Origin: Sporosalibacterium faouarense
GTDB lineage: Bacteria; Bacillota; Clostridia; Tissierellales; VENL01
Length of the DNA: 34,589 nt
NCBI RefSeq assembly: GCF_016765695.1
Contig: NZ_JAETGO010000010.1
Location: 1-34,589, forward strand
Reading direction: 5' to 3'
The notes under the pieces were generated by a model. That model was given only the letters and a program-made list of their open reading frames with translations, searched no databases and was not told the DNA's origin. Of this stretch, positions 12,828 through 13,091 are shown piece by piece. Both the position numbers and the translations under genes were made by a program. Numbering within the stretch: position 1 is the first letter of the stretch; every line of letters begins with the position of its first letter.

Positions 12828-13091
12828 TTATCCAATTAGAGGCTTAACGAATAATAAGATCATAGCAATAACTAGACCATAGATACCAGTTGTCTCTGCA
12901 ACTGCTTGACCAAGGATCATTGTTCTAATAATGTCACCTTGAGCTTCTGGTTGTCTACCTACTCCTTCAGCCGCTTTACCTGCAGCATATCCCTGTCCGA
13001 TTCCAGGACCGATACCTGCTATTGCTGCTAAACCTGCACCTATTGCTGAACATCCAAGTATAAACGCTTCACTAGTGATTCCTTCTAACAT
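12828..13091 (-). CDS. atpE: F-type ATP synthase c subunit, Na+-binding type
   Basis: The c subunit forms the ion-driven rotor ring in the membrane. The 87-aa product is a two-helix hairpin joined by the polar loop GRQPEAQGD. The ion site shows the full set of residues known from Na+-coupled rings such as Ilyobacter tartaricus: Q33 in [10 protein letters not shown], and V64, E66, T67, T68 and Y71 in [10 protein letters not shown]+-specific rings usually lack the glutamine and the hydroxyl next to the glutamate. I therefore predict Na+ coupling, though proton use at low Na+ cannot be excluded. The ATG at 13091 follows AAGGAGG at 8 bases; the in-frame TTG upstream lies in the ribosome site itself. 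Confidence 0.97.

Follow-up and report, generated by a model that had tools for sequence, protein, structure and literature searches.

A predicted Na+-coupled F1Fo ATP synthase in Sporosalibacterium faouarense and a second rotary ATPase that probably uses protons

The window, the whole stretch of 34,589 nucleotides from one contig of Sporosalibacterium faouarense that was analysed here, contains a complete atp operon on the minus strand. The operon runs from position 14620 down to 7245 and begins with AtpZ-like and AtpI genes, followed by a full set of F-type subunits in the order a, c, b, delta, alpha, gamma, beta and epsilon (Table 1). The minus-strand translation of the atpE region is the 87 amino acid subunit c, and several stops are found on the plus strand. 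The sequence GAAGGAGG precedes the ATG of atpE, which favours this ATG as the start over an upstream TTG. AtpE scores 73.1 bits against NCBIfam TIGR01260 (ATP synthase F0 subunit c; cut-off 43.95) and possesses the glycine motif GxGxGxGxG at residues 26-34. Compared with its family, the atpD open reading frame has about 26 additional amino acids at the start, and the TIGR01039 match begins at residue 32. Translation of atpD probably begins downstream, more likely at an internal ATG (MAENNIG).

An assignment of the operon to the alternate F-ATPases (N-ATPases) was considered and rejected, as the alternate-family models are all under their cut-offs for the window proteins: TIGR03322 gave 55.1 (cut-off 130.85), TIGR03306 127 (302.1), TIGR03324 659.3 (750.5) and TIGR03305 606.3 (752). 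AtpR (PF12966) scored 22.9 on the AtpI protein, below the cut-off of 26. Two other regions of the minus strand were noted by eye. Positions 15005-18442 encode a secreted-looking protein of 1145 amino acids with two nucleotidase-like halves and a LysM-like start, and positions 28070-29257 hold two adjoining half-size transporter genes that resemble a chromate transporter pair.

Table 1. Genes of the atp operon, the antiporter of the window and the K subunit gene found elsewhere in the genome
Feature	Position	Strand	Remarks
AtpZ-like first gene (PF09527)	14366-14620	minus	69.9 bits, cut-off 26.6
atpI, ATP synthase I chain (PF03899)	13936-14361	minus	41.2 bits, cut-off 25.1
atpB, subunit a, 232 aa	13210-13908	minus	TIGR01131 111.8 bits, cut-off 102.6
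atpE, subunit c	12828-13091	minus	87 aa; Q33/V64/E66/T67/T68/Y71 and glycine motif GIGPGIGQG
atpF, subunit b	12171-12695	minus	TIGR01144 117.9 bits, cut-off 65.5
atpH, subunit delta	11629-12183	minus	TIGR01145 159.9 bits, cut-off 57.5
atpA, subunit alpha	10124-11629	minus	TIGR00962 859.7 bits, cut-off 484.45
atpG, subunit gamma	9245-10105	minus	TIGR01146 332.9 bits, cut-off 194.45
atpD, subunit beta	7665-9143	minus	TIGR01039 862.9 bits, cut-off 462.85
atpC, subunit epsilon	7245-7652	minus	TIGR01216 118.9 bits, cut-off 67.25
Antiporter, PF00999 exchanger	25673-26872	minus	260.4 bits
A/V-type K subunit	G000 contig C12:33925-34350 (L127:5926-6351)		

Judged from its sequence, AtpE has all the residues of the known Na+-binding site. 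The Q....ES/T signature (Gln or Glu in helix 1, Glu plus Ser or Thr in helix 2) is represented by Q33, E66 and T67, and both the polar residue that follows the Ser/Thr position, T68, and the stabilising tyrosine, Y71, are there. V64 is a weak part of the signature because it supplies a backbone carbonyl only. These six residues had been named in an earlier, sequence-only reading of this DNA, which gave no strand, and all of them were confirmed when numbered from the ATG. It had also been claimed that they correspond one-for-one with the site of the I. tartaricus ring (1yce/2wgm). This holds by position, with an offset of one (Q33/Q32, V64/V63, E66/E65, T67/S66, T68/T67 and Y71/Y70), but not by residue, since AtpE has a threonine at position 67 and I. 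tartaricus a serine.

When solved chains were ranked by their match to AtpE, c1 and c2 of Acetobacterium woodii (4bem) were followed by the rings of F. nucleatum (3zk1) and I. tartaricus (1yce) and then by proton rings, including that of the spinach chloroplast. The closest solved single-hairpin ring protein is A. woodii c2, which is identical to AtpE at 59 of 77 amino acids (77% over the aligned stretch) and at all six site residues. Identity is 71% (58/82) to the F. nucleatum ring, 69% (56/81) to the I. tartaricus ring and 42/76 over the aligned stretch to the spinach ring; the alignments with A. woodii c2, F. nucleatum and I. tartaricus are ungapped. In the order Q33, V64, E66, T67, T68, Y71 the site reads QVETTY in AtpE and A. 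woodii c2, QVESTY in I. tartaricus, EVESTY in F. nucleatum and QFEALY in spinach. The Gln, Glu and Tyr are thus shared with spinach, whose ring uses protons, and these three residues alone cannot separate Na+ from H+. Within the set of rings compared, the two hydroxyl residues after the glutamate are the telling ones.

The tally across 79 named loci indicates that the Na+ site in AtpE is more than chance. The full site was found in 52 of these loci, the core only in 4 and neither in 23, which make up the distant tail. The loci had been selected for their resemblance to the query (80 of 262 were kept), and the proportions are not frequencies in nature. The best-scoring hairpin of each locus was used, and two loci in which the first position is unaligned (L058 and L074) were counted as neither. 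The top named matches to AtpE include records of Tissierellia, Dethiosulfatibacter, Marinisporobacter and Anaeromonas at 80-86%. A match to AtpE was also found in 34 of 41 genomes related to that of the window, its own included. Loci from 30 of the 34 were read, the weaker matches in G013, G017, G020 and G033 being left out, and every one of the 30, the window itself among them, has the full signature, as QVETTY (26 loci), QIETTY (3) or QIESTY (1). In this group the Na+ site seems to be the norm.

Subunit a, whose nearest match is that of Anaeromonas frigoriresistens, carries the stator arginine in SLSFRLFGN and an aspartate, D208, in YFDIFAG. The D208 column was compared across the 76 loci in which subunit a was found. 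An aspartate occupies it in 48 of 51 loci with the full Na+ signature (the rest have E, G or a gap) and in 2 of 4 core-only loci (the remainder have G), whereas 20 of 21 loci lacking the signature have a glutamate. The exception is C. ragsdalei, which has the aspartate and no Na+ signature, so that subunit a adds little. As the pattern may just reflect shared ancestry, D208 was dropped as separate proof of a Na+ site.

It had been proposed that Rnf or Na+-decarboxylase genes should be looked for in the genome, and both were found. The rnfC model is above its cut-off twice (contigs C85 and C83; L125 and L126), and the translations of the open reading frames around both genes resemble RnfD, G, E, A and B by eye. 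OAD_beta is likewise above its cut-off twice. One of the two OAD_beta genes clusters with a gamma chain, a biotin carrier and a full-length carboxyltransferase (C78:4000-17000, L123), the last of which scores 939.2 bits against TIGR01117, slightly under the cut-off of 998.8. Methylmalonyl-CoA epimerase, MeaB and methylmalonyl-CoA mutase are found in the same cluster, which we read as a putative methylmalonyl-CoA decarboxylase Na+ pump with its own substrate supply. A membrane pyrophosphatase (977.5 bits) has the motif GNTTAA and presumably belongs to the K+-dependent class. With its two rnfC genes, the Na+-decarboxylase cluster, a second OAD-beta gene and the membrane pyrophosphatase, the gene content fits Na+ energetics, and the organism is probably an anaerobe.

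The best explanation, to which we give a probability of about 0.9, is that the operon encodes a conventional F1Fo ATP synthase with a homomeric Na+-binding c ring, in which Na+ flow would drive ATP synthesis. A homomeric ring is expected because the genome has no c1 gene. Na+ coupling had already been predicted for this organism, and the prediction is well supported by the identity of the site, the Na+-pump genes and the relatives tested in print. In the proposed mechanism, Na+ would sit between neighbouring c subunits, bound by E66 and Q33 of one and by the T67 hydroxyl and V64 carbonyl of the next, while a water held by T68 would complete the site and Y71 would steady E66. Rnf and the methylmalonyl-CoA decarboxylase would expel Na+, which would return through subunit a onto E66, turn the ring and drive ATP synthesis. 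The ring probably has 11 subunits, corresponding to about 3.7 Na+ per ATP. This number is expected because the Na+ F-type rings characterised at the time of one report had 11 hairpins (PMC3692424) and the glycine motif, which goes with rings of 11 hairpins, fits. The coupling ion in the cell, the geometry of the site, the ring size, the ion moved by Rnf and the direction of the enzyme are all things that we infer.

How well does such a motif predict the coupling ion? According to one report, all Na+ ATP synthases studied to date are able to translocate H+ too (PMC7911925), so that a Na+ site permits Na+ coupling but is no proof of it. In C. aceticum, which has the motif Q....ET, ATPase activity was raised by NaCl to about 200% and KCl was without effect (PMC7911925). 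In T. kivui, where the motif is missing, growth does not depend on Na+ and the enzyme was classed as H+-dependent, although the authors of that study mention an older report of Na+ dependence (PMC4320612). In these two organisms the motif has thus been predictive both ways. The published record on motif and coupling ion is not fully consistent, as the ring sites of C. paradoxum are given as H+-binding in one paper (PMC7793690) and as Na+-coupled in another (PMC3692424).

It has to be considered whether the Na+-coupled enzyme might work mainly as an ATP-driven Na+ exporter in a cell that makes ATP by substrate-level phosphorylation. Such a role is compatible with the Na+ site, the Rnf and decarboxylase genes make the genome resemble that of a fermenting anaerobe, and a second rotary ATPase exists in the genome. 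However, the rnf genes, the decarboxylase cluster and the membrane pyrophosphatase would supply a gradient for synthesis, and export as the main function seems unlikely, if still worth bearing in mind. The enzyme may switch direction, which the sequence does not reveal.

Considerably less probable is the suggestion that the ring keeps its Na+ site by descent and works mainly with H+ in a habitat of low Na+ or low pH. The ability of the Na+ ATP synthases examined to translocate H+ (PMC7911925) would allow this, and the F. nucleatum ring is described as intrinsically H+-selective and as using Na+ through Na+ excess (PMC3692424). On the other hand, the ligand set is retained in all 30 related loci read, several Na+-pump genes are retained in the genome, and Na+ is reported to outcompete H+ at millimolar Na+ and near-neutral pH (PMC7911925, PMC3692424).

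A hybrid rotor like that of A. woodii, in which a c1 subunit includes a carboxylate-less hairpin, is scarcely credible: such hairpins do occur in 18 of the 79 named loci and in 3 of the 30 related-genome loci (short flanks), one of the loci being that of Anaeromonas (L006), whose subunit a is the closest, but the gap between atpB and atpE is only 118 bases, a search of the genome gave two PF00137 genes, atpE and an A/V-type K gene, and for this assembly, which is 97% complete, the lack of a c1 gene refutes the idea.

Relatives were observed to have, beside atpE, c1-type genes that encode 3 to 6 hairpins in a single frame; the c1 subunits of A. woodii and C. aceticum are described with two. Among the named loci there are three hairpins at L005:6634-7569 and L015:9070-9975, four at L014:8892-9965 and five at L033:6511-7884. 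A class-wide search gave a c1-type match in 14 of 291 genomes at E 1e-30. Ten of the 14 were read, leaving out four in which the match spans about one hairpin. A single open reading frame of 3 to 6 hairpins is present in eight of the ten (L184-L186, L188, L189 and L191-L193, where L193 and L015 probably come from one genome), and in the remaining two the gene has two hairpins. The key residues follow the patterns EQQ (3), EEQ (2), EQEQ, EQQQ and EQEQEQ in these eight, and EQQQQ is also found among the multi-hairpin genes of relatives; across 12 long open reading frames, 26 of 44 hairpins have Gln for the ion-binding Glu. Two of the eight genomes are single contigs (G218 and G102), which makes an assembly artefact less likely. 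A literature search that covered few subscription journals returned no title or abstract describing c1-type forms of 3 to 6 hairpins. Rotors built from such proteins would carry fewer ion sites than hairpins, and these genes would matter more than the AtpE finding because they bear on the minimum number of ion sites per rotor.

The only PF00137 gene found in the genome besides atpE belongs to an A/V-type operon and encodes its K subunit. In the second helix of this protein, GLAEGIAIYG, the Glu is followed by Gly and not by Ser or Thr, and no Gln was found in the first helix of the hairpin when it was read from the sequence. As both the hydroxyl after the Glu and the Gln are missing, H+ use is predicted. 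The best solved matches of the K subunit are chains of proton V-ATPases, and the Na+ K ring of E. hirae ranks below many of them. An E. hirae-type Na+ V-ATPase was rejected for this ring, which is without the Gln and Ser/Thr ligands near the Glu. The motif GLAEG occurs in 21 of 25 related K proteins inspected, that of this genome included; these 25 come from 27 loci, with L153 and L155 left out. The K proteins of L149, L150, L152 and L154 are of a different kind, with Gln and Glu-Thr, and resemble a Na+-type ring.

Matches to both rings were found in 15 of the 41 genomes, to the F-type ring only in 19 and to the K subunit only in 7. A full-site F-type ring together with a K subunit lacking a hydroxyl after the Glu is present in 13 of the 41, this organism included; these are the 15 genomes with both rings minus G020 and G033, whose K subunits are of the Gln and Glu-Thr kind. 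Going by these residues, one of the two rotary ATPases of the cell probably works with Na+ and the other with H+. That ATP turnover by a Na+ F1Fo enzyme and an H+ A/V-type enzyme exchanges Na+ for H+ across the membrane is a tentative proposal, for which we would put the chances a little short of even. A Na+ F1Fo enzyme beside an H+ A/V-type enzyme is the reverse of the arrangement in Enterococcus hirae.

The sequence-only reading had offered a CPA2 antiporter of the window as a link between Na+ and H+ cycles. This protein has an adjacent Asp pair at 159-160 and scores 206.5 bits against TIGR00932, below the cut-off of 238.3. It is encoded by a separate gene about 12.6 kb from atpE, with unrelated genes between, and the proposed link is speculation without support. 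The second, proton-type rotary ATPase is a better candidate for linking the two cycles.

The presence of a Na+-type AtpE in this organism leaves the general picture of Na+ ATP synthases unchanged; it does support grouping the organism with anaerobes that live on a sodium economy, with consequences for models of its energy metabolism. Of the solved systems, the Na+ F1Fo enzyme of A. woodii is like AtpE in the six site residues of c2, and A. woodii also possesses atpI (PMC4320612); it differs in having a c1 gene. The I. tartaricus ring shares the positions and the glycine motif with AtpE and differs in the Ser after the Glu. The c11 ring of F. nucleatum shares the scaffold but carries a glutamate in helix 1 where AtpE has its Gln, and a serine in place of the Thr that follows the Glu. 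Clostridium aceticum has the same motif, and both a Na+-stimulated ATPase and a Na+-dependent Rnf have been measured there, although it has a c1 gene, unlike this genome (PMC7911925). The nearest counterpart in gene content is Clostridium sticklandii, for which a Na+-dependent F-ATPase, an extra V-ATPase and Rnf were reported together, along with a putative methylmalonyl-CoA decarboxylase and a membrane pyrophosphatase; the two rnfC genes found here are a difference (PMC3091704). That set was described in 2010, and its authors called the pairing of F- and V-type enzymes quite unusual for bacteria (PMC3091704). The prediction of a Na+-type rotor is sound and routine rather than new, since nearly equal equipment is already known in C. 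sticklandii.
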